A stretch of DNA of 34,359 bases from positions 1 through 34,359 of IMG/VR virus record IMGVR_UViG_3300030116_005585; one strand, written 5' to 3'. Below, piece after piece: positions 3,278-34,359 of the stretch. The position numbers and the translations under genes were made by a program. How positions within the stretch are numbered: the stretch's first letter is position 1; every line of letters starts with the position of its first letter. Source of the DNA: a virus. A model generated the notes under the pieces. That model was not told where the DNA came from, searched no databases, and saw nothing but the letters and a program-made list of their open reading frames with translations.

Positions 3278-4207
3278 TTAAGAAGACCAATAAAATCCAG
3301 CAGCATAAAGGTTTCTGGTTGTATTTCCGCCTCCAAAGTTGACGTTAGGGAAACCATCTCCGCCATTCCAATCTACTGTTTTTAAATTCAGATTTGATGA
3401 ACTGGCTCCAGCGTATGTAACTACTGGGGCAGCTTCTAAAGTATTTCCCCAATCCCAATAAGCATAAGTCCAGTTACTGAAAATATTATTTTGTTCTCCA
3501 GCAGGCACTGCATAAGGAAGTCCAGAGATAGTAGTTGTAGGAGAGCCTCCATTAACTGTTATATAACATTTCCAATAAACCATATTACCTATTTTCGTAT
3601 ACCCTCCGACTTGATGTTGATAAGTAACACTTGTTCCTGAAACGGTAGGAGTCCATGACCCCTCTTCATAGTCGTCAATCGCATTGGCAGCTGCAGTATC
3701 TCCATTAAATGAGATACCACCACCTGTCTGGAAGCGTATTTTTTCACTTCCATCAATAAAGATTCTTACTTTACTATCATTTTTTGCATTATTAATATCA
3801 GCTTCTAAGTCTAAGTCTCCGCCTGACCCATCTACTAAGCAGACAGGAGGACCAGTGGTATCTGAATCGGTAAGAGTGAATTTAGGAGTAGGGTTATTTA
3901 TCCCTAAAGTGGTTCCATCAAAGGTAAGATTTGCCTCACCTTGCATAGCATTAGCACCTGTCACAGTGACAACTGTGTTATCAGTTGATCCAGATAAAGT
4001 TGCTCCACCTGATGAAGCATCTTCAAAAGCTGGAGGCGATCCGGCTCCTGTAGAAGTTAATACTTGTCCATCTGTTCCGGGTCCAACTGCTACTGGATTA
4101 CCTGATGCGTCATAAGTAATGATCTGGCCATCCGTTCCAGCGGCCATTTTTGCTAAAGATATAGCATCATCTTTAATGCCATCTGTTCCTGCTTGAGTAA
4201 GTCCCAT
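3278..4207 (-). CDS. Tail fibre / adhesin-like protein
   Basis: 309 residues. The N-terminal third consists of short beta repeats (DGQIITYDASGNPV, DGQVLTSTGAGSP) typical of fibre shafts. A middle part reads PTPKFTLTDSDTTGPPVCLV, and the C-terminal 120 residues, starting near EEGSWTPTVSG, are rich in aromatic residues, Gly and Asn, as in trimeric receptor-binding tips. It is the only short fibre of the cluster not followed by the small YPSI/QLD-type protein; the 96-aa gene comes next instead. It probably sits at the tail tip. Sequence identity to known fibres is usually low, so the call rests on composition, repeats and context. Confidence 0.75.
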   Translation of the reverse strand: MGLTQAGTDGIKDDAISLAKMAAGTDGQIITYDASGNPVAVGPGTDGQVLTSTGAGSPPAFEDASSGGATLSGSTDNTVVTVTGANAMQGEANLTFDGTTLGINNPTPKFTLTDSDTTGPPVCLVDGSGGDLDLEADINNAKNDSKVRIFIDGSEKIRFQTGGGISFNGDTAAANAIDDYEEGSWTPTVSGTSVTYQHQVGGYTKIGNMVYWKCYITVNGGSPTTTISGLPYAVPAGEQNNIFSNWTYAYWDWGNTLEAAPVVTYAGASSSNLNLKTVDWNGGDGFPNVNFGGGNTTRNLYAAGFYWSS

Positions 4208-4209
4208 AA

Positions 4210-4503
4210 TTAACTAGGTTTAGGATTGTCAGATTTAACTTTATCAATGGCTTCGACCCACTTGTTAGTGCCATTCTTTTTGTCCCAATATAGTTGATCT
4301 AATTGCTCCTTAATTGAATCATATTCAATTGATCTTTTATTTTTATAATCTACTTTTGCAAATTCAGTATTAATAGCAGAATGATCTAATGTTATTTCCT
4401 TTCCATCTTTATCCCAAGCTTGGAAAGTTACATTGTCATCGGTGCTAACACGTACTGCGTCTGAATAAAGTTTAAATATTTGAGAAGTCTTTGAAACACT
4501 CAT
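4210..4503 (-). CDS. Fibre-linked small protein C (putative fibre chaperone)
   Basis: 97 residues. It shares the layout of two further genes (5090-5416 and 6042-6356): a motif of the form Y-x-S/A-[IL]-x-x-Q/F-[IL/A]-D-x-[LM]-Y-[WK] (here SIKEQLDQLYWD) and an end that reads KVKSDNPKP. Proteins with this motif often follow tail fibre genes in marine phages; a fibre-folding or attachment role is the usual inference. It overlaps the stop of its fibre by four bases. The C-terminal nine residues are nearly the same as in the copy at 5090, also at the DNA level (GGATTGTCAGATTT), which points to recent duplication. Confidence 0.65.
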   Translation of the reverse strand: MSVSKTSQIFKLYSDAVRVSTDDNVTFQAWDKDGKEITLDHSAINTEFAKVDYKNKRSIEYDSIKEQLDQLYWDKKNGTNKWVEAIDKVKSDNPKPS

Positions 4504-5093
4504 GCTGCCACCTCAAGTAAAGTTATAGAACTTGTGCATCCACCATCTGTATTGTTTAGTACAACTTCACCTGATTGTCTATTTTTTATTTGGACTTTAT
4601 AAACATGTGCATTAGTATCTGCGGCATTGTCTAAAGAGACAAAAGTTACTGCTTGGTTTAAAGGATCACTTTGCGAATATCCCATATTGGTATTAATAGC
4701 GACTTCAGTAGAGCCTTGTAATAGACGAACACTACAAGCTGATAAGTCAGCCGATTCTGATGAGATTCCAACACACTCAGCAATAGCTAAAATCTTATTA
4801 CTTGCAGAGGCAGGGGTAATACTCGCAGTTAAATTAGTGCAATCTGTAAAGCTAGTTGAGTTTATAGCCGACCTTGTACCAGTTGAAGCATGAACTACTT
4901 GTAGGATTTTACCTGCTCCTGACCAAGCATTATCACCCCTTAAAAAGGTTGAACTACTAGCCGTTCCAGTGGCCGATAAGGTTGCAATATCAACGGTGTC
5001 CGCAGGTAGACTCAGACTCCCATCAGCCGCTAAGACAATGCTGTTCGTTGACGAACTAGCGTGTTTAATGTTGGTCGTGTTAAGTGTACTCAT
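4500..5093 (-). CDS. Tail fibre protein (cassette C)
   Basis: 197 residues in two parts. The N-terminal 60 residues carry LSATGTASSSTFLRGDNAW, a linker shared almost exactly with the fibre at 6356-6928. From about residue 65 (GKILQVVHASTGTRSA...) a compact beta-rich domain with SITPASASNKILAIAEC extends to the end; this domain type is common in marine phage fibres and is thought to be a trimeric tip. A shared N-terminus with different C-termini suggests domain shuffling that changes receptor range. It overlaps the neighbouring genes by four bases at each end. Confidence 0.78.
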   Translation of the reverse strand: MSTLNTTNIKHASSSTNSIVLAADGSLSLPADTVDIATLSATGTASSSTFLRGDNAWSGAGKILQVVHASTGTRSAINSTSFTDCTNLTASITPASASNKILAIAECVGISSESADLSACSVRLLQGSTEVAINTNMGYSQSDPLNQAVTFVSLDNAADTNAHVYKVQIKNRQSGEVVLNNTDGGCTSSITLLEVAA

Positions 5094-5416
5094 GGTTTTG
5101 GATTGTCAGATTTTACTTTTTCACAAGCCGCATAATACGCCTTTAAATGTGTATCATCTCCTTTGCTATTCCAATACATAGCATCGGCAAAGTCTGCTAA
5201 GGAAGGGTACTGAGGTTGTCTATCTCTTTGATATTTGACAGCATGGTACTCATCAGTTAAACGAGTTATTTCTGCTTGTATCTCTTCTTCTGTTGGTTGA
5301 GGGATATCAGGTGTTTTCCATAAAGTTACTTGGTCACTAGCACCAAGAAATCTAGCATTAGGTTGTAATGAATTAATTGCTGTAAACCTATGTACAGGTA
5401 TTTTTTCTACGGTCAT
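5090..5416 (-). CDS. Fibre-linked small protein B (putative fibre chaperone)
   Basis: 108 residues, second member of the family. The product contains PTEEEIQAEITRLTDEYHAV (helical), then QYPSLADFADAMYWNSKGDD and the end CEKVKSDNPKP. The start MTVEKIPVHRFTAINSLQPN resembles that of member A (ITKADAMSSLKPG), so A and B are closer in the N-terminal half, while B and C share the C-terminal end. This mosaic fits repeated duplication and recombination. It is coupled by four-base overlaps to the fibres before and after it. Confidence 0.65.
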   Translation of the reverse strand: MTVEKIPVHRFTAINSLQPNARFLGASDQVTLWKTPDIPQPTEEEIQAEITRLTDEYHAVKYQRDRQPQYPSLADFADAMYWNSKGDDTHLKAYYAACEKVKSDNPKP

Positions 5417-6045
5417 ACGTCTAGCTCCATAGCTACAATTTGCATGTTGTTAGTTGCACCTGATTCACTATAAGGCAACCATATCTTGCCCGTAGAGTTC
5501 TGCACAAGTCCCATCAATTTATACTGAACTGCTGTGCTTGCAGATTGTGCTGGTGAGTCTAAGTGCATCATATGGAATTGTCCGGGTCCAAGCCAACTTG
5601 TGGAAGTTGCATAATAAGACCATTGATTATCTTCTCTAACATCTACATCAACACCTCCAATACTTCTTCTTACTCTAAAACTAATTTCACTTGTGTTACC
5701 TGAACTAGCTTCTTGTGCAATACCTGAGTTCCATTGAATCAGTATCTTACTATTTAATTTAGTTGTAGTAACTGTTATTGTTGTATTCCCTATGTCTTGG
5801 AAAGCATTATCTGCATCAAAATAATTACTTCCTGTAGATTGTACATGAACATACTGTAGAACTTTCCCTCCTCCAGCGTCAGCCCAACTAAGAGTACCCG
5901 ATCCATTTGTAGCTAATACTTGATCCGCATCTCCGTCATTTTGCGGGAGCGTTAATGTGACGGCTGCATTAGAAGTTGTTGAGGCTGGAGCTTTCCAAGC
6001 TACGGTTCCTCCTCCTGAATCAGCGGTGAGTTTTACTTCGCTCAT
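5413..6045 (-). CDS. Tail fibre protein (cassette B)
   Basis: 210 residues. The N-terminal section contains TLTLPQNDGDADQVLATNGS followed by GTLSWADAGGGKVLQYVHVQ, the common peptide repeat of marine phage fibre shafts. The C-terminal 140 residues form a beta-rich domain, with ITVTTTKLNSKILIQWNSGI near its start and GPGQFHMMHLDSPAQ further on. The shaft differs from cassettes A and C (no FLRGDN linker), although the order shaft then KVLQ-type tip is the same as in C. It is likely a tail-tip adhesin. Four-base overlaps link it to its small partner genes. Confidence 0.78.
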   Translation of the reverse strand: MSEVKLTADSGGGTVAWKAPASTTSNAAVTLTLPQNDGDADQVLATNGSGTLSWADAGGGKVLQYVHVQSTGSNYFDADNAFQDIGNTTITVTTTKLNSKILIQWNSGIAQEASSGNTSEISFRVRRSIGGVDVDVREDNQWSYYATSTSWLGPGQFHMMHLDSPAQSASTAVQYKLMGLVQNSTGKIWLPYSESGATNNMQIVAMELDV

Positions 6046-6356
6046 TTTGGATACTTGTCTTTTACTGCTTTAATTGCTTTCGCAAATTCACCTGTGGCAT
6101 CGACCTTACCAGCAAGAATGTCTTTATATAGTAGATCAATTTGCTCTCTTAAGGCAGGATATTCTGATCTCCGTGGACCTTGATAATCTTCTATTGCTTG
6201 TAATCTTGAGACTTCAGCATTGACCTCAGATTCTGTAGGTTGAGTTTGTTTTGTATCTATCCAGTTTACTGTTGAATAATCTTCTCCTTGTATAGAGAAC
6301 TCAGCTCCCGGTTTAAGTGATGACATTGCATCGGCTTTAGTAATAGTTTTTTTCAT
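6042..6356 (-). CDS. Fibre-linked small protein A (putative fibre chaperone)
   Basis: 104 residues, first of three related proteins: SLKPGAEF near the start, PTESEVNAEVSRLQAIEDYQ, then YPALREQIDLLYKDILAGK and the end AIKAVKDKYPK. I chose ATG 6356 (MKKTITKADAM) over ATG 6368 because GGGAG lies seven bases upstream and its ATG overlaps the fibre stop as TAATG. The family is not characterised to my knowledge; position after every short fibre except the last suggests a dedicated helper of fibre folding or joining. Confidence 0.65.
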   Translation of the reverse strand: MKKTITKADAMSSLKPGAEFSIQGEDYSTVNWIDTKQTQPTESEVNAEVSRLQAIEDYQGPRRSEYPALREQIDLLYKDILAGKVDATGEFAKAIKAVKDKYPK

Positions 6357-6928
6357 TAAATCTCCCAAGTAATTAATGTCGCACCAGTTATATACTGAGT
6401 ACTAGTGCCGCCGGATTGATAACCTCTAACTTTAAATGTTGTAGATGAGGTGGTTGAGTGGTAGTCCACTATTGTTAACATGTTCTGGCCACCTGCGTCA
6501 TACTGATTTTGTCTCCATTCAAAAGCACCACTCGTATTACTATTGTCATTTAGTTTAATAGAATAATGTGGAATGATATTTGTAGAATAAGAATTAGAAA
6601 TTTGAGCAACTAGTAGGAAAACAATAGTACTGCCACCATTCCCGCCTCTAGTTACACTATGACCTGTATCTGTATAACTACTTGCTGTAATCGTAGTACT
6701 TCCTCCTCCATATTCATCAACTTGGAACTTTTTAACTACACCTGAAGGTGCTGCCCAAGAATTGTCTCCACGTAGGAATGTACTGGAACTTGCTGTACCT
6801 GTTGCTGATAAATCTGCTAGTGCAACCGAATCATCAGGTAATCCACCAGCCGCTAAATTTGTAATAGTTCCATTGGAGCCGAGGTTAATTAACCCCGCTG
6901 CACTAGAACCGTCAATAACAATTGCCAT
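6356..6928 (-). CDS. Tail fibre protein (cassette A)
   Basis: 190 residues. The start MAIVIDGSSAAGLINLGSNG resembles many cyanophage fibre N-termini. LSATGTASSSTFLRGDNSWA (about residues 40-59) matches cassette C. The C-terminal 120 residues (KKFQVDEYGGGSTTITASSY onward) form a beta domain ending GATLITWEI. This tip differs from those of B and C, so each fibre may bind a different surface structure, or they may be alternatives. It begins nine bases after the 675-aa fibre ends. Confidence 0.78.
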   Translation of the reverse strand: MAIVIDGSSAAGLINLGSNGTITNLAAGGLPDDSVALADLSATGTASSSTFLRGDNSWAAPSGVVKKFQVDEYGGGSTTITASSYTDTGHSVTRGGNGGSTIVFLLVAQISNSYSTNIIPHYSIKLNDNSNTSGAFEWRQNQYDAGGQNMLTIVDYHSTTSSTTFKVRGYQSGGTSTQYITGATLITWEI

Positions 6929-6937
6929 GATGAAAGT

Positions 6938-8965
6938 TTAGCTAATAACCCAGTTAGATCCAGTTGGGATTGTCACCGTTCCCGAAACTGTAATAGGACC
7001 AACTGAATGGCCATTCTTATTTGTACTCATCGTATATGTGGAACTAATCGTCTGGGAATTTTCATAGATACATCCATCAGCAACAGAAGAAGCTAATCCA
7101 GTTAAAGCCGATCCATCCCCTGCATAAGAAGTCGCTGTTAATTGTCCTGTGGCAGAATTAAATGCAAGGTTGCTTCCAGATTTAGGGGCTAGATCACCAG
7201 TGGCAGCGGTAACAAATAATGGGAAACAAGTTGTATCAGAAGACTCATCAGCAACAGTAAATGTAGTCGCATTTCCTACTGCAATTTGAGTACCCATATT
7301 GATGATGAAATATGAGGCTCCTGAAGGTGGGGCGGAATCAAAAATAATATCCGTTCCAGAAACGACATAGCCCTCAGTCATATCCCCTTGGCCAGACCCA
7401 TCGTTGGGTTGCTGCATTACCCCAGCAATTGAAACTCTCAGGATTTCTGCATTAACAGGAGTAACAGCATCACTAGTTCCCTTAGTAACAAGCTTGAAGC
7501 GATAACGAGATCCATCAAAAGTTGAACCACCTCCACCTGTTCCTGATGAAGATGCAATATCTAATAGATCCGCTGATCCTGTTGCACCTCCACCAATTTC
7601 ACCCCATCCAGAGTTATATCCTTCAAACTTAGAAGTTGTGCTGTTATAACGAAAATCTCCATTACTCGGAGAACCATCCCTTTGAGCAGTTGTACCAACT
7701 GGGACTCGTATTGAAGATGTGTAGTTATGAGTAACCTTGCCTGTAAATGTTCCGCCTGTATCTGGAATACCACCTGAATCAGTAGCCCAAGTTAATGTTG
7801 TAGGAGTAGAAGCGTCAGCCTTAAGAATTTGGTTGGCTGTTGGAGCGTCAGCAGGAAGACTGACTGTATAACTAGCTTCTGATCCTTTATCAGTTGCTCC
7901 TTTTATTCCTACATAAGCAGAACCATTTGAATCTGCTTCGTAAAAACGAACCTCTTTATCGTTATCAACAGAAAGATGACCTGTTGTTGTTATTGCTCCT
8001 GAAGCTAAAGAGGAAAGCGTTCCAACAGAAGTCAGGCTTGAAGTAACAACAGTACTTTTTAATTCTGTTCCAGTAAGCGTTCCAGCCGCAGCCGTTACTG
8101 TTATTGCTCCAGTACCGTCAAAGTCAACACCATTAATTGCTCTTGCAGTAGCTAAAGCTGTTGCTGTTGCAGCGTTTCCAGTACAAGACCCCGCAGATCC
8201 AGAAGTGTTTCCAGTAACATTGCCAGTTAAATTTCCGACAAATGAAGTTGCAGTTAATGCACCTGTATTTGAATTAAAAGTAAGACTCGTTGCTGTCTTT
8301 GGTGGAAGATTTCCACTTGCCGCTGTTGCAAAAAGAATTGAACAAGAAGTATCAGTAGATTCCGCAGCAAGAGTAACGTTGGTTGCTGTTGTAGCTGTTG
8401 CAGCTGTTCCTGTGTAGTTAGTAGCTGAAAGAACTTGTGTTCCTGCAACTTTTAAAACTTTTCCAGAGGCAAGATCAATATGCTCTGAACTTGTCCATGC
8501 ATCAGTTGAATTAACCCAATTCCAAGTTTTATCACCATCTGTTGAATCAATTGTTATTCCAGCTCCGTCTACCGCTGAATCATCTCCATTGCCTTTTGCA
8601 ATTTCTATGTTTTTATCTTTTACCGTCAAAGTGGTTGTATCCACCACCGTATTCGTACCACTGACTGTCAAATCGCCCGGAATAGTGACAAGACCAGCCG
8701 AACTGATTGTTAACCTTGCCGTTCCACCTGTAACAAATTGAATCCCGTTATCTCCATTCCTTGCAATTCCTGTGTCTTGGTCAAGTTGGAACGCTATAGA
8801 TGGAAGAGAGGTTGAACCGTCTGGAACTCCTGTAAAAAGATCCTCATAAGTAATCTTTTTATTTTGATCTGCTGTAGACGCTTCACTTAAATCAATAATC
8901 GGTAAAACATCACTAGCCGCAGGTGCAGTTAGCGCAGTTAAAGCTGTTATCTTCTTGTTTGCCAT
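6938..8965 (-). CDS. Long tail fibre / tail-tip adhesin, 675 aa
   Basis: The start MANKKITALTALTAPAASDV plus LPIIDLSEASTADQNKKITY is a widespread N-terminal module of cyanophage fibres and probably docks the protein to the tail. Residues about 195-245 and 565-620 are two copies of one module (TDTSCSILFATAASGNLPPK and SDTTCFPLFVTAATGDLAPK). Between them is a GNLTGNVTGN repeat stretch of beta-helix type and another shaft module (PVGTTAQRDGSPSNGDFRYN) that also occurs in the collar fibre at 8968-9825. The repeats, low-complexity Thr/Ala/Ser composition and position after the J-like gene support a structural fibre. The short C-terminus (TIPTGSNWVIS) is a common fibre ending. Confidence 0.82.
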   Translation of the reverse strand: MANKKITALTALTAPAASDVLPIIDLSEASTADQNKKITYEDLFTGVPDGSTSLPSIAFQLDQDTGIARNGDNGIQFVTGGTARLTISSAGLVTIPGDLTVSGTNTVVDTTTLTVKDKNIEIAKGNGDDSAVDGAGITIDSTDGDKTWNWVNSTDAWTSSEHIDLASGKVLKVAGTQVLSATNYTGTAATATTATNVTLAAESTDTSCSILFATAASGNLPPKTATSLTFNSNTGALTATSFVGNLTGNVTGNTSGSAGSCTGNAATATALATARAINGVDFDGTGAITVTAAAGTLTGTELKSTVVTSSLTSVGTLSSLASGAITTTGHLSVDNDKEVRFYEADSNGSAYVGIKGATDKGSEASYTVSLPADAPTANQILKADASTPTTLTWATDSGGIPDTGGTFTGKVTHNYTSSIRVPVGTTAQRDGSPSNGDFRYNSTTSKFEGYNSGWGEIGGGATGSADLLDIASSSGTGGGGSTFDGSRYRFKLVTKGTSDAVTPVNAEILRVSIAGVMQQPNDGSGQGDMTEGYVVSGTDIIFDSAPPSGASYFIINMGTQIAVGNATTFTVADESSDTTCFPLFVTAATGDLAPKSGSNLAFNSATGQLTATSYAGDGSALTGLASSVADGCIYENSQTISSTYTMSTNKNGHSVGPITVSGTVTIPTGSNWVIS

Positions 8966-8967
8966 AA

Positions 8968-9825
8968 TTAGGTTTTAATTACATACATTAAAGCGACGTT
9001 TCGTGGTCTTGTTTCAGATCCACCAGTACTTGCAGTTTCCTTGTTAGCGGCTACACAATCATTATCACCTCCTTTCCACCAACGATACCCACCATTTGCA
9101 TCATTCTGTTGATCTATATAAGTATGAGTGTGAGCTTTAAACGCCTCGTCTTGTGTTGAACCAAGTGACCTTCCTGAATCAACTCCTCTTGAATTATCCC
9201 AACCTCTTATAAATTCACCTCTTAAATCTGGAAGGTTAAAAGTTGAACTACCATCACCTGCGCCAAACGTGGTAGAAATTGTGCTGAATAATGTTGCATA
9301 AGTACTGCGACTAACAGCAGCTCCATTGCACTCTAAAAATCCAGTTGGAACTGTTGATGTTCCCATTGCATAAATAGCACCTGTCGGAGTACCACCTCCA
9401 AGATTTATCCATGCTGATCCGTCATAAGCTTCTACCTGACTTAACGTGCTGTTTACACGAGTATCTCCAGTCGCAGGAGATCCCGGTCTTTGTGCAGTAG
9501 TTCCAACAGGCAGTTTTAACCTTGACGTTCCAGAGCATGAAAGCTCAGGAGTTGTAACTGTTCCTGTAAATGTAGGTGAAGCTAGTTTTGCTAAAGCTAA
9601 ATTTGCTGCTGTTATATCTCCAATTTCCAACCAAGCATTATTTGCACCATTTCTGATCTTGAGCAAATTATTACTTGTATCTGCCCAAAGTTGATACGCA
9701 TAAGTTGTTGAAGGCTCTGACGATCCACTGGATAACGTCCCCAGTGCCATCAACTGATCATTCATGTCAGAACGAAATGTTGCTCCGTTGGCGTTAGCAA
9801 CTACTAGGTCTCCTTGAGGACTCAT
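8968..9825 (-). CDS. Tail fibre with phage tail collar domain
   Basis: 285 residues. N-terminal shaft region, then PVGTTAQRPGSPATGDTRVN, then from about residue 150 a tail-collar domain: GAIYAMGTSTVPTGFLECNG, YATLFSTISTTFGAGDGSST, FNLPDLRGEFIRGWDN and an RPRNVALMYVIKT ending. The collar domain (first described in T4 short fibre protein gp12) holds a trimeric, often metal-bound, receptor-binding tip; HTHTY near residue 235 could be such a metal site. The gene follows the J-like gene directly (stop and start are adjacent), as the side fibre gene does in lambda-type phages. Confidence 0.88.
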   Translation of the reverse strand: MSPQGDLVVANANGATFRSDMNDQLMALGTLSSGSSEPSTTYAYQLWADTSNNLLKIRNGANNAWLEIGDITAANLALAKLASPTFTGTVTTPELSCSGTSRLKLPVGTTAQRPGSPATGDTRVNSTLSQVEAYDGSAWINLGGGTPTGAIYAMGTSTVPTGFLECNGAAVSRSTYATLFSTISTTFGAGDGSSTFNLPDLRGEFIRGWDNSRGVDSGRSLGSTQDEAFKAHTHTYIDQQNDANGGYRWWKGGDNDCVAANKETASTGGSETRPRNVALMYVIKT

Positions 9826-30955: not shown

Positions 30956-31147
30956 ATGGACTCTAAATTAAACGATGCTTATTTTTATGAAAATAAAAGA
31001 GCAGAACTTGAAAAAAAATTCTTTGAACATCAACTCTCGGAAGATGAATATATCTCTTTATGCCTTGATCTTGAAAATGAATACTTGACTTACCTCTACA
31101 AAAAAATTGATGCTAACCCTAAAGATAATCCTGACCTTTTACTCTAG
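30956..31147 (+). CDS. Hypothetical helical protein, 63 aa
   Basis: I chose ATG 30956 (MDSKLNDAYFYENKRAELEK), directly after the previous stop, over ATG 30881, which would overlap the upstream gene. The protein is one long charged helix (RAELEKKFFEHQLSEDEYIS) with a leucine/tyrosine pattern that suggests a coiled coil. Its end overlaps the convergent exonuclease gene by nine bases. Confidence 0.6.
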   Translation: MDSKLNDAYFYENKRAELEKKFFEHQLSEDEYISLCLDLENEYLTYLYKKIDANPKDNPDLLL

Positions 31148-31978
31148 AGAAGGTAAAAACTCATCTCGGAATTGATTTAACCTTTCCTCAAATAATATCC
31201 GACCTCCTGCTAATTCTAAAGCATTCAACTCGACCTCTTGAATGCCATTTTCTCTCGCTATAACAATTAATCCACTTCCTACCTTTATTCCTGTCATTTT
31301 CTCCATACCCCATGCATAGGCACTTAATTGCAAGCGATAATCATCTAACCATGCGTCTGGTTTTGGTTTAGACGATCCACTAGTCTTGAAATCTAATAAA
31401 CATAAGTTCCCTGATCGTTTGTAATCTATTAAGGCATCACTTTGTCCTGCATATCCGATCTTGTTATGAATGGAAAATTCTGAGGCATGAATGGCCGCTA
31501 CATTTTCTTCTATCCACTCGGCCAAATTTTCCGCATATTTTCTAGCTGTCCAATTGACAGTTTTCGCTCTTTTCTTTGCTGTTTGAATGGACTTTTTTGT
31601 AATTGCTTGTGGGCCTCTAAAAAGGCCATCTTCGTAAACCTTCCAGCAATTTCTAGCGTTGCATATATTCCTGTTGATCTTTGATCCAACTTTGAGTACA
31701 TACTCACAATGCTCATGACTAAGAGTTCCCCTGTTACACGCAAGCTCTAGTTCATCGGCACTCCCCGGACGGGATTTCCATTTCTCTAAAGACCGACGCT
31801 TCCCTTCAGAAACCGTGTTGCTTAATATCGTAGTCACTGAATAGTAAATATTTCCTTCTGTATCCGTATATTTCCGGTATTTATCAGAATCATCACGCTC
31901 CAATGAACTAGAACGCAAACTCGCTAGTAAGTCTTGACGTTCTTCTACCAGTGGCATGTAATGAACACTCTTTCCCAT
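31139..31978 (-). CDS. PD-(D/E)XK exonuclease (RecB/Cas4 type)
   Basis: 279 residues. Motifs: RGTLSHEHCE (H88), E167 in ASEFSI, GYAGQSDALIDY with D181, LLDFKTS with D196 and K198, and QLSAYAWGM with Q217. These are the H, E, D, D-x-K and Q-x-x-x-Y elements of RecB-family nucleases. Enzymes of this kind produce ssDNA ends for recombination or process concatemers in phages. No 4Fe-4S cysteine cluster of the Cas4 kind is seen at the C-terminus. It faces left, against its neighbours, and the ssDNA-binding-type gene lies in the same recombination module. Confidence 0.85.
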   Translation of the reverse strand: MGKSVHYMPLVEERQDLLASLRSSSLERDDSDKYRKYTDTEGNIYYSVTTILSNTVSEGKRRSLEKWKSRPGSADELELACNRGTLSHEHCEYVLKVGSKINRNICNARNCWKVYEDGLFRGPQAITKKSIQTAKKRAKTVNWTARKYAENLAEWIEENVAAIHASEFSIHNKIGYAGQSDALIDYKRSGNLCLLDFKTSGSSKPKPDAWLDDYRLQLSAYAWGMEKMTGIKVGSGLIVIARENGIQEVELNALELAGGRILFEERLNQFRDEFLPSLE

Positions 31979-32115: not shown

Positions 32116-32757
32116 ATGGCTTTAAAAGGCTTTCAGGTAACAGTGGAAGGTACTTCCCCTCTCCTCTGTTCAAATGTCGCTAGTTCCGATCCATTAGGAG
32201 AAGGTTCTAAGCAAAAAGCATTTTTCTCTAGCAAAAAGAAGAAAAATGATGAAGATCACAGAGCGTTAAGAACTCTCGACTGGATCTTTTCTGGCTATTG
32301 GGAATCTCAAGGAGATGTTGAAATTGACGAGTCCGAAAACATTGTCAATTTTGAAGGATTCTCAACTCCTACTCTGCCCGGTGCAAATTTTCAACGCTGT
32401 CTACGAAATGCAGCTACAAAATGGAAACTAGGAAAAGATGTCCTTCGCTCCGTTGTCGTTTCTAACGATCCAGCTATTGAATACGATGGCCCAAAAAATG
32501 CCATTGAAATGTTCAATTCCAGAACACCAAAATTTCAATTAGCTGCTTTTACATCAAGAGGTGTATGGGTTAATCGTTTAATGTTCCCTCTTTGGAAGGC
32601 AACTTATCGGCTAACTGTTGATGATGAAATTTTAAGTGTTTCTCAGCTTAAAAGAATTATTACAATGGCAGGTAAAGCTGAAGGTTTAGGTACTTGGCGA
32701 CCCAGACATGGAAGATTTACTGCTGGTGAATTAGTGGAGGTTGGTTTTGATGCCTGA
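32116..32757 (+). CDS. Conserved phage protein with RAMP/Cas7-like end motifs, 213 aa
   Basis: N-terminus: FQVTVEGTSPLLCSNVASSD plus PLGEGSKQK; then KKKKNDEDHRALRTLDW, STPTLPGANFQRCLRNAATK W, EYDGPKNAIEMF, and near the end KAEGLGTWRPRHGRFTAGEL. The same set (G-x-[ST]-P-L-L, D-P-L, K-x-[DE]-x-[DE], a P-x-x-x-[FL]-x-x-[AC]-L segment, G-[LI]-G-x-[WD]-R-P-[RK]-x-G-R-F) marks a phage family without assigned function that I recall from other genomes. The ends resemble RAMP proteins such as Cas7. Its neighbours (exonuclease, ssDNA-binding type) hint at single-strand annealing or nucleic-acid coating. Fold and role are inferred. Confidence 0.7.
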   Translation: MALKGFQVTVEGTSPLLCSNVASSDPLGEGSKQKAFFSSKKKKNDEDHRALRTLDWIFSGYWESQGDVEIDESENIVNFEGFSTPTLPGANFQRCLRNAATKWKLGKDVLRSVVVSNDPAIEYDGPKNAIEMFNSRTPKFQLAAFTSRGVWVNRLMFPLWKATYRLTVDDEILSVSQLKRIITMAGKAEGLGTWRPRHGRFTAGELVEVGFDA

Positions 32758-33253
32758 TTTAAACATCCATCCACTTGATATAAAGAACCTTGAAAAAGGT
32801 TCTTCTATCTCTAAAGAACAAATTCTTGAATTTTGGAAATATCATTTTCCAGATAAAGAATGGAATGAATTTTCTTTAATGGAAATCAAGGAAAAAATTC
32901 AAAAATTAAGAGCTGACTTAAACGCTCCAATCGTTATCAAACAGGTAAAAGTTGGTAAGGATTTTAGTTTCAAGATTCTCTTAGATGAAGAAGCTCCCGA
33001 TTATTTAGCAGCTCAAGCAACTGCTGGCATTAGAAAGCAGCGTAGAAATGCAAGACGATTGTTAACTGACATTGATGTTGACAATCTTGATGAAGCACAA
33101 AAACGCAACTTGGAAACTAAACAAGTTCATCATGCGTTTATTGCTTCTGCTGCTGATGGAGCTAGAAAACATTCGCTCCAAATGCAAAGGAAAGGTCAGT
33201 CGTTACCTAAGTCTTTGATAAACAAATCAAAGCTTATCCCTCCTGATTCTTAA
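32750..33253 (+). CDS. Hypothetical protein, 167 aa, partner of the RAMP-like gene
   Basis: I chose ATG 32750 (MPDLNIHPLDIKNLEKGSSI), with GTGGAGG about nine bases upstream, over TTG 32741. It overlaps the previous gene by eight bases. The sequence is helical: SKEQILEFWKYHFPDKEWNE, then AGIRKQRRNARRLLTDIDVD, and a basic C-terminus (HSLQMQRKGQSLPKSLINKS). The charge suggests nucleic acid binding. It is probably made with, and acts with, the 213-aa protein. I do not recognise the family. Confidence 0.65.
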   Translation: MPDLNIHPLDIKNLEKGSSISKEQILEFWKYHFPDKEWNEFSLMEIKEKIQKLRADLNAPIVIKQVKVGKDFSFKILLDEEAPDYLAAQATAGIRKQRRNARRLLTDIDVDNLDEAQKRNLETKQVHHAFIASAADGARKHSLQMQRKGQSLPKSLINKSKLIPPDS

Positions 33254-33740
33254 CATTGCGGCTCGATTTGCTGCCCTTCGATTCCCCCTTCTGCCATGCT
33301 GCTCGTTTCAGCTCTATCGCTCGCACTCAACGATTAAGAGTGCAACTTTCTAAGATTTTGTCTTAGCGGCGAATCGCGCCTCAACTCTATTGCGCTTCAC
33401 CTCGGTTCGCTTCAATTCAACAGCTGCTCAATTCACTCGCTCGCACTCAACGACTAAGAGTGCAACTTTCTAAGATTTTGTCTTAGCAAATCGATTCGGT
33501 GCTATTCGACTCTTTCCGATTCCTCCCGCAACGCCTCGATTCCCCTCAGTGCTTTTCGATTCACTTCAATCGCTTCTCAATTCTACGATCCAAGAATTGA
33601 ACTCCTAAAAATTTGCCTTAGCTCCGCAATTTTCCGCCAATCCCCTCATCTCAGCTCTGGTTTCCGCAGCTCTTACCTGCTCAGTACGGCTCAATTTTCC
33701 GCATTTCTATCGCTCACGATCCACGATTAAGATCGCATAA
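33254..33740 (+). repeat. Array of four hairpin units with stop-free spacers (non-coding)
   Basis: Units 1 (33317-33367) and 2 (33437-33487) are 51 bases long with one difference and lie 120 apart. Hairpin A: GCACTC-loop-GAGTGC (33323-33343, 33443-33463), loop AACGATTAA or AACGACTAA. Hairpin B: CTAAGA-TTTTG-TCTTAG (33350-33366, 33470-33486). Unit 3 (33577-33622) has TCAATTC/GAATTGA with TACGATCCAA and a weak B. Unit 4 (33711-33740) has CGATC/GATCG with CACGATTAA and passes into a terminator. The loop is conserved, and the stems differ but pair. The spacers (63, 69, 89 and 88 bases) are pyrimidine-rich with TCGATTC-like words. If transcribed it should be on the + strand. Confidence 0.8.
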
Positions 33741-33771
33741 AAAAGACCCCCTAATTAAAGGGGGCTTTTTA
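33738..33771. terminator. Strong bidirectional terminator
   Basis: AAAAAG plus CCCCCT (33740-33745, 33747-33752) pairs with AGGGGG plus CTTTTT (33759-33764, 33765-33770); A46 is bulged and the loop is AATTAA. T-runs exist on both strands. It closes the array on the + strand and the ssDNA-binding-type gene on the - strand. Confidence 0.9.
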
Positions 33772-33795: not shown

Positions 33796-34359
33796 CTAAG
33801 CGTCAGGATTGAATGGATCTCCATTAACTAAAAGAGCTTTAATATCAAAGCCTTTTTTCTGAACGTCAGCCCATGCTGATTCCATAGCTTCTTCAGCTTC
33901 GTCATCTCTTGGTTCAACCTGTAGATCGTAAGAAATTCGACCATCTGTATTGATCTTTGTTAGACATAAATCCCAATTCAATAGGTTTTTATATTTCCTA
34001 TTTGAAGCAATCCTTTTAATTGCTTTTTGAATTGTGAATTGGTCACAAGAGAATACCCTTACGGCTTTGTTGTCAAAGTCATAAACAGGCCATGCCATTG
34101 CTTCTTTTACAGGGGCATTTTCATCGCTTCCATAAGCTTTACCCCACATAAAGTCTTTACCCATTTCTTCCATTACTTCTTTATCTGTTGGTTTAGAAGT
34201 AAACCTGAATGGTCTTTTCCCTCCGGTGGAAACATCTTCTCCCCATGTTTGAAAAAACATTAAAGGATCTTCTTCTAGCAAGGCAAAATGAGCTGGTTTC
34301 TTTACATCAACCATGCCGGGATTTAGATAAGAACTAACAAGAGGTTTGTCCCCTTGCTC
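33796..34359 (-). CDS. ssDNA-binding protein-like, start probably beyond the right edge
   Basis: From ATG 34314 the product has 172 residues, but the frame stays open to the edge (…LVSSYLNPG before MVDVKKP), and the sequence reads as one protein, so I treat the gene as partial. Features: PAHFALLEEDPLMFFQTWGE, GKRPFRFTSKP, AMAWPVYDFDNKAVRVFSCD with a following QFTIQKAIKRIAS, WDLCLTKINTDGRISYDLQV and an acidic C-terminus ending NGDPFNPDA. A [WF]-x-V-[YI]-[DN] strand, a T/Q-x-x-I helix and a Y-x-[LV]-x-P strand recur in phage OB-fold ssDNA-binding proteins. It would protect ssDNA made by the exonuclease. Confidence 0.62.
   Translation of the reverse strand, partial: EQGDKPLVSSYLNPGMVDVKKPAHFALLEEDPLMFFQTWGEDVSTGGKRPFRFTSKPTDKEVMEEMGKDFMWGKAYGSDENAPVKEAMAWPVYDFDNKAVRVFSCDQFTIQKAIKRIASNRKYKNLLNWDLCLTKINTDGRISYDLQVEPRDDEAEEAMESAWADVQKKGFDIKALLVNGDPFNPDA

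Follow-up and report, generated by a model that had tools for sequence, protein, structure and literature searches.

We analyzed a stretch of viral DNA of 34,359 nucleotides (IMG/VR record IMGVR_UViG_3300030116_005585, positions 1 to 34,359; hereafter the window) and consider it very likely, with a probability of about 0.9, that it holds a cyanophage VIPR locus composed of vipr, a probable vap and an array of four vrRNAs with guides and hairpin tails. VIPR, described in a 2026 preprint from phages of E. coli and Pseudomonas and proposed as the ancestor of CRISPR, combines a RAMP homolog with vrRNAs, in which tandem GGY/NN pentanucleotides precede a structured 3' tail; in reading DNA these vrRNAs skip one nucleotide, and they repress rival phages (PMC13142463). 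Our assignment is based on the homology and fold of Vipr, the pentanucleotide tracts of the array, the described SUSP1 system and a positive control, in which a periodicity scan of the SUSP1 locus recovered the published T-NN-GG arrays upstream and downstream of the genes. A sequence-only reading of the window had concentrated on the hairpins and found that they fit no known element. They fit VIPR as the 3' tails of guide RNAs, while the guide information lies in the pyrimidine-rich tracts between them; both the 5-nt periodicity of these tracts and the continuity of the array with the two-gene operon directly upstream had been overlooked.

The gene vipr (32116-32757, + strand) encodes a predicted guide-RNA-binding protein of 213 amino acids with a RAMP fold and the G-loop GLGTWRPRHGRF. 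Searches with phmmer matched this protein to PDB 36pp_D, "SUSP1 Vipr protein" (E 8.7e-15; profile E 5.9e-21, near full length), which is 28% identical and its sole sequence relative in PDB. Its AlphaFold2 model has a pLDDT of 82, and the top Foldseek matches are all Csm3/Cas7-type RAMPs (probability 1.00, E 6e-5). The G-loop, GLGxWRPRxGRF with small changes, is common to Vipr and, in nearly all cases, the seven homologs in our alignment, which come from phages of E. coli, Pseudomonas, Gordonia, Mycobacterium and Listonella. The protein belongs to no Pfam family, and its single PHROG match has no known function. No match was found in 292 cyanobacterial genomes, a search made without a positive control, so its empty answer shows little.

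The tracts between the hairpins are built of 5-nt repeats of the form Y-K-Y-N-N, mostly CTC, TTC or TGC followed by NN. With the tail's conserved TCG(C/T)T as the anchor, an alignment of 156 upstream tracts had a strict 5-nt period running from about -70 to the tail, with C or T at position 0, T or G at position 1, C or T (mostly C) at position 2, and nearly uniform composition at positions 3 and 4. Mean column information was 0.30 bits at period 5 versus 0.09-0.11 at periods other than multiples of 5, and among periods 2 to 12 it is 5 and its multiple 10 that stand out. The relatives and the window together yielded 139 decoded guide tracts falling into 92 dinucleotide clusters. Near-identical guide dinucleotides are kept between phages with different tails, and the same guide occurs with different tail stems across the related contigs L025, L026, L029, L038, L039, L051, L061, L063 and L069; guides and tails are therefore exchanged separately. 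A test of substitutions by repeat phase in related guides found C and T exchanging at position three of the triplet (92% transitions) and no clear extra conservation of the NN positions.

A RAMP-fold protein adjoining an array of structured repeats could also be a Cas7-like ribonucleoprotein (RNP) with ordinary contiguous guides, the array being a CRISPR-like mini-array of spacers of about 60 nt. We give this very little credence: the pentamer constraint is strong, contiguous matches of the array in 50,697 phage records do not exceed chance apart from the terminator, the only clear match to a target (described below) needs a 1-nt skip, and no cas genes lie near. The earlier statement that the array is not CRISPR, tRNA or a simple terminator is likewise supported.

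The array occupies 33254-33770 on the + strand. Its first base comes directly after the stop of the upstream gene (33253), and its last element is an intrinsic terminator (33747-33770, z -4.6), the reverse strand of which likewise scores as a terminator, for the convergent gene at 33796-34314. The guides of units 1, 3 and 4 are in phase, with about 12-17 repeats, and that of unit 2 is shifted by 2 nt. The guide tract of vrRNA 1 (33254-33314, decoded YKY NN repeats) has a period-5 information of 2.42, matched by 1 of 2000 dinucleotide shuffles; its tail hairpin (33315-33344) has the flank TATCGCT, a stem of 33323-33328/33338-33343 and the loop AACGATTAA. The guide tract of vrRNA 2 (33367-33434) was read from sequence and has a 2-nt phase slip at about 33420-33421. 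The automatic decoder retained just three of its repeats, and this guide is possibly damaged by the slip; it is followed by a tail (33435-33464) with the flank ACTCGCT, a stem of 33443-33448/33458-33463 and the loop AACGACTAA. The guide tract of vrRNA 3 (33485-33567) reaches 3.06, a value attained by none of 2000 shuffles, and precedes a tail (33568-33601) with the flank AATCGCT, a stem of 33577-33583/33594-33600 and the loop TACGATCCAA. The guide tract of vrRNA 4 (33620-33707) has a value of 2.17, again with 0 of 2000 shuffles reaching it, and a near-identical guide is present in two other phages (related contigs L010 and L007); its tail (33708-33736) has the flank TATCGCT, a stem of 33717-33721/33731-33735 and the loop CACGATTAA. 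The four stems reported by the sequence-only reading, GCACTC/GAGTGC (twice), TCAATTC/GAATTGA and CGATC/GATCG, are all where it had placed them and all fold, and the conserved loop it described recurs as N-ACGA-NN(N)-AA in every unit. A genome scan found no further copy of the tail elsewhere in this phage's own genome.

Related contigs were first reached via the upstream and downstream genes, after which an IMG/VR scan with the pattern AATCGCTN{6,10}ACGATTAAGA gave 60 stretches. After removal of overlaps these comprise 182 tails in 58 viral sequences, with 1-7 tails per locus and a commonest tail-to-tail spacing of 100-215 nt. The 86 non-identical tails have 29 distinct stems, in which a mean of 5.55 of 6 inner positions are paired, compared with 3.47 when the 3' arms are re-dealt (maximum 4.07 in 1000 trials). 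The inner five stem positions are paired in 99% of tails, with several pair types at most positions, so that the tail consists of a constant ACGA-NN-AA loop on a covarying stem of free sequence. The earlier inference of selection on structure was right, because stems pair far beyond chance across relatives; a lack of relatives, or relatives with unpaired stems, had been named as what would count against it, and the opposite was found. A blastn search of annotated isolate phages returned no tail match, and a loose-pattern scan of genome contigs was filled with chance matches and is no proper test of prophages. Tails, inter-unit elements and the whole array had no Rfam covariance-model match.

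A constant loop on changing stems, in several copies per RNA, is also what would be expected of a protein-sponge RNA like CsrB or RsmZ, in which hairpins with the same loop titrate a regulator. Such a sponge leaves unexplained the 5-nt periodicity with its two free positions, the adjoining vipr gene and the near-identical guides kept across phages with different tails, and we regard it as very improbable; a CsrA sponge was among the ideas that we dropped, together with a rolling-circle replication (RCR) origin, nut sites and an attC/integron array.

Between consecutive units we found three interchangeable classes of element. The second hairpin of the sequence-only reading, CTAAGA/TCTTAG, belongs to class alpha (CTAAGA-TTTTG-TCTTAG). 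As that reading had it, this hairpin is intact after units 1 (33350-33366) and 2 (33470-33486) and degraded after unit 3 (33605-33622, a poorly paired copy, CTAAAAATTTGCCTTAGC), with the intrinsic terminator in its stead after unit 4. Class beta has the core CCCTWCGTGGT with a varying 7-bp stem, and class gamma is CACCTC...GAGGTG with an inner hairpin. An inter-unit element follows 107 of 118 tails that have a further unit behind them versus 5 of 64 last tails (Fisher P 3e-30), and several apparent exceptions among tails without an element carry variant or other hairpin-like stretches. In beta and gamma, 5-6 of 10 pairs each are maintained through changes on both sides. Hairpins of classes beta and gamma, both with internal loops and covarying stems, were noted in the array of contig L013, in L017, L018, L035, L062 and L068 (beta) and in L014-L069 (gamma). 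The simplest reading is that the inter-unit element is probably the site at which vrRNAs are cut apart, and beta and gamma are possible new processing sites or small ribozymes.

Small + strand open reading frames (ORFs) occur within or at the end of some arrays (L007:5090-5335, L008:4229-5022 and L009:2767-3234), directly after a tail and in the usual place of the inter-unit element; they look like gene cassettes that enter and leave the array. These ORFs, and the recurrence of units with different guides and tails, would suit an array for transcription control or recombination, with nut-like antitermination sites or attC-like sites for cassette shuffling. This we consider extremely unlikely: integrase-type conserved ends are lacking, stems vary freely while the loop and flank alone are constant, the array follows vipr-vap wherever both are visible, and homologous recombination that exchanges guides would be expected to cause such shuffling. 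The earlier suggestions of a packaging signal, an origin or a recombination-site array likewise found no support, and the array fits VIPR.

The second gene of the operon (32750-33253, + strand) has an ATG start at 32750, and a TTG at 32741 is also possible. We call it a probable vap on account of its place next after vipr in related contigs and of its winged-helix-like topology: in the AlphaFold2 model (pLDDT 80) the N-terminus is winged-helix-like and the C-terminal helices are long. Sequence, profile and structure searches gave no significant family, PDB or fold match. An assignment to vap1 was unsupported, as hhalign of the vap profile with the second genes of SUSP1/Medea1 and of actinophages gave a probability of just 1-3%, while those two groups match each other at 98%. 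Wherever related contigs extend far enough, they have the same order, vipr-vap-array.

These observations suggest how the locus might work. The two genes and the four vrRNAs would probably share one transcript ending at the terminator, in line with the earlier expectation of a + strand RNA ending near 33771, and, of the options raised earlier, a small RNA that would bind a protein is the one that gained support. The transcript would most likely be cut into single vrRNAs at the second hairpin between units, each with a 5' guide of about 12-17 Y-K-Y-N-N repeats and a 3' hairpin tail. The guide would be covered by subunits of Vipr, a primitive Cas7-like RAMP, with the YKY triplets holding the protein. 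Each NN pair would read two bases of the target and pass over one. Bound to double-stranded DNA, the complex would block transcription of a rival phage or mobile element, and the system is probably aimed at rival genetic elements.

A candidate target comes from a guide of the relatives. Guide G9 (TT AG CG GC CG CT CC AT CC CC) is present in nine phages, sometimes with a different tail. Eight of its dinucleotides, searched with a skip of one nucleotide, matched at least 120 viral stretches, many of which extend to 10 of 10; these are tRNA-Leu genes, matched from the D-arm to the anticodon on the reverse strand. An initial idea that the matches mark a conserved protein motif was dropped, as their mixed reading frames led to tRNA genes. 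Against tRNA-Leu, G9 matches 10 of 10 dinucleotides at a 1-nt skip and at best 6 of 10 at skips of 0, 2 or 3, while the best of 2000 random dinucleotide sets reached 7 and the best of 2000 reorderings 8; the tRNA set of this control was enriched by the same scan, and a handful of independently collected tRNAs reach only 6 of 10. T7-like cyanophages integrate at tRNA-Leu via a tRNA-Leu-derived phage attachment site, attP (PMC8776855), which makes rival phages of the T7-like kind, or else the tRNA gene of the host, candidate targets, as a hypothesis. In five T7-like cyanophages the tRNA-Leu site alone stands out, with run lengths no better than controls; all guides searched against these five genomes and 1.4 Mb of collected sequence gave no convincing target. 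A second widely kept guide (CA GC AT TT GA AT TT GA) had 79 matches, whose extension was no better than chance.

Several results weigh against the assignment to VIPR or against the proposed targets. Exact 10/10 sites for G9 are absent from 194 cyanobacterial genomes, and the guide matches 19 of 20 bases at picocyanobacterial tRNA-Leu genes and at attP of P-SSP7, P-SSP2 and P-SSP3. The window's own guides of units 1, 3 and 4 had no target in IMG/VR, and those of units 3 and 4 none in 12 cyanophages and 8 cyanobacterial genomes at up to 3 mismatches. The triplet is YKY, not GGY, though a related consensus is allowed for some VIPR types (PMC13142463), and the homology of vap is not established. 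Perhaps the tail forms a pseudoknot between flank and loop (TCG/CGA); this pairing is invariant in the 86 tails, so that covariation is uninformative on it, while its outer pairs are often broken, and covariation lends it no support.

The phase slip in unit 2, the degraded element after unit 3 and the lack of targets for the window's guides could also mean that the VIPR locus is decayed or inactive in this particular phage. We think this unlikely: both genes are intact, vipr being 92-99% and vap 76-95% identical to the nearest relatives, units 1, 3 and 4 are intact, and guide 4 is kept in three phages.

The phage lineage appears, from sequence matches, to infect picocyanobacteria. The protein encoded at 247-1002 has 395 matching records, all from Synechococcus, Prochlorococcus, cyanophages or marine viruses bar one uncultured, and the gene at 2366-2896 is similar to an oxygenase of a Synechococcus phage. 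Elsewhere in the window, 3278-9825 holds a run in which related tail-fibre-like ORFs alternate with short ones of about 100 amino acids that have repeated VKSDNPKP-like ends, which suggests duplicated fibre-chaperone modules. The convergent gene at 33796-34314 (- strand) has a weak match to Sak-like single-stranded DNA annealing proteins (PHROG 659, E 0.016), and a PD-(D/E)XK exonuclease gene lies in the same region at 31139-31978.

VIPR, with a different triplet code, would now be present in a lineage that apparently infects marine cyanobacteria, the source of much ocean photosynthesis. We tentatively raise the possibility, doubtful as it is, that picocyanobacterial siphoviruses have a VIPR type of their own with a YKY/NN code, arrays cut by the undescribed alpha, beta and gamma elements, and at least one guide against the tRNA-Leu integration site; if true, the attachment site would be the point at which the system hinders common rival cyanophages. 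The decoded guide tracts (139, in 92 clusters) and the 86 non-identical tails may help to separate protein contacts from guide information in the code, the inter-unit elements may reveal how vrRNAs are processed, and tRNA-Leu/attP offers a concrete target hypothesis.

Among known systems, the CsrB/RsmZ sponge RNAs share several hairpins with one loop motif and variable stems, and have no counterpart to the guide code, the vipr gene or the inter-unit elements. Class 1 CRISPR effectors (Cas7/Csm3) resemble the present system in their RAMP fold (the Foldseek result above) and in an RNA array adjoining the protein gene; here, no cas genes were recognized near the array, there are no direct repeats or contiguous spacers, and the guide consists of 5-nt repeats. 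VIPR arrays with hammerhead ribozymes, mentioned in PMC13142463 with reference to its fig. S19, also have structured RNA between consecutive vrRNAs, whereas in the present arrays the intervening hairpins are short, have internal loops and match nothing in Rfam.

Other loci also bear on the range of VIPR. VIPR-like loci with GG-containing pentamer arrays were seen in actinobacteriophages (Mycobacterium phage LittleE, Gordonia phage Trine, and the contigs L330 and L334; LittleE and Trine are our L329 and L328), where they are not annotated as VIPR and vipr and the following gene are labeled hypothetical or DNA binding protein. In Listonella phage phiHSIC (L333, 3130-3400) a Vipr homolog lies beside tracts of 5-nt periodicity whose triplet, of the GCA type, likewise departs from GGY.

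The closest comparison is with VIPR itself. The published criteria are a minimal locus of vipr and vap with one or more long intergenic vrRNA regions, vrRNAs of 9-16 tandem pentanucleotide repeats with two hypervariable positions and a structured 3' tail, and a Vipr with an RRM core, G-loop and thumb, together with vrRNAs that are expressed, co-purify with Vipr, target double-stranded DNA with a 1-nt skip and give programmable repression; in the SUSP1 clade the tail is a pseudoknot (PMC13142463). All seven types are described as using GGY/NN or a related consensus (PMC13142463). In the window we find a Vipr homolog with a G-loop and RAMP fold, a two-gene locus beside the array, pentamer repeats and a structured tail. 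SUSP1 VIPR, of type II, differs in having GGY in place of YKY and the loop GCTACATTAAAA in place of ACGA-NN-AA, in a second protein, vap1, to which the one here has no recognizable likeness, and in lacking the cyanophage setting and the alpha, beta and gamma elements. Common to both are a small RAMP-fold Vipr with a G-loop, the order of vipr and a second small gene, an intergenic vrRNA array of pentanucleotide repeats with two free bases, a structured or terminator-like stretch between units and a possible flank-loop pseudoknot (GTAG/CTAC in SUSP1, TCG/CGA here), and the SUSP1 tails, as read from sequence, are also hairpins whose stems differ between vrRNAs.
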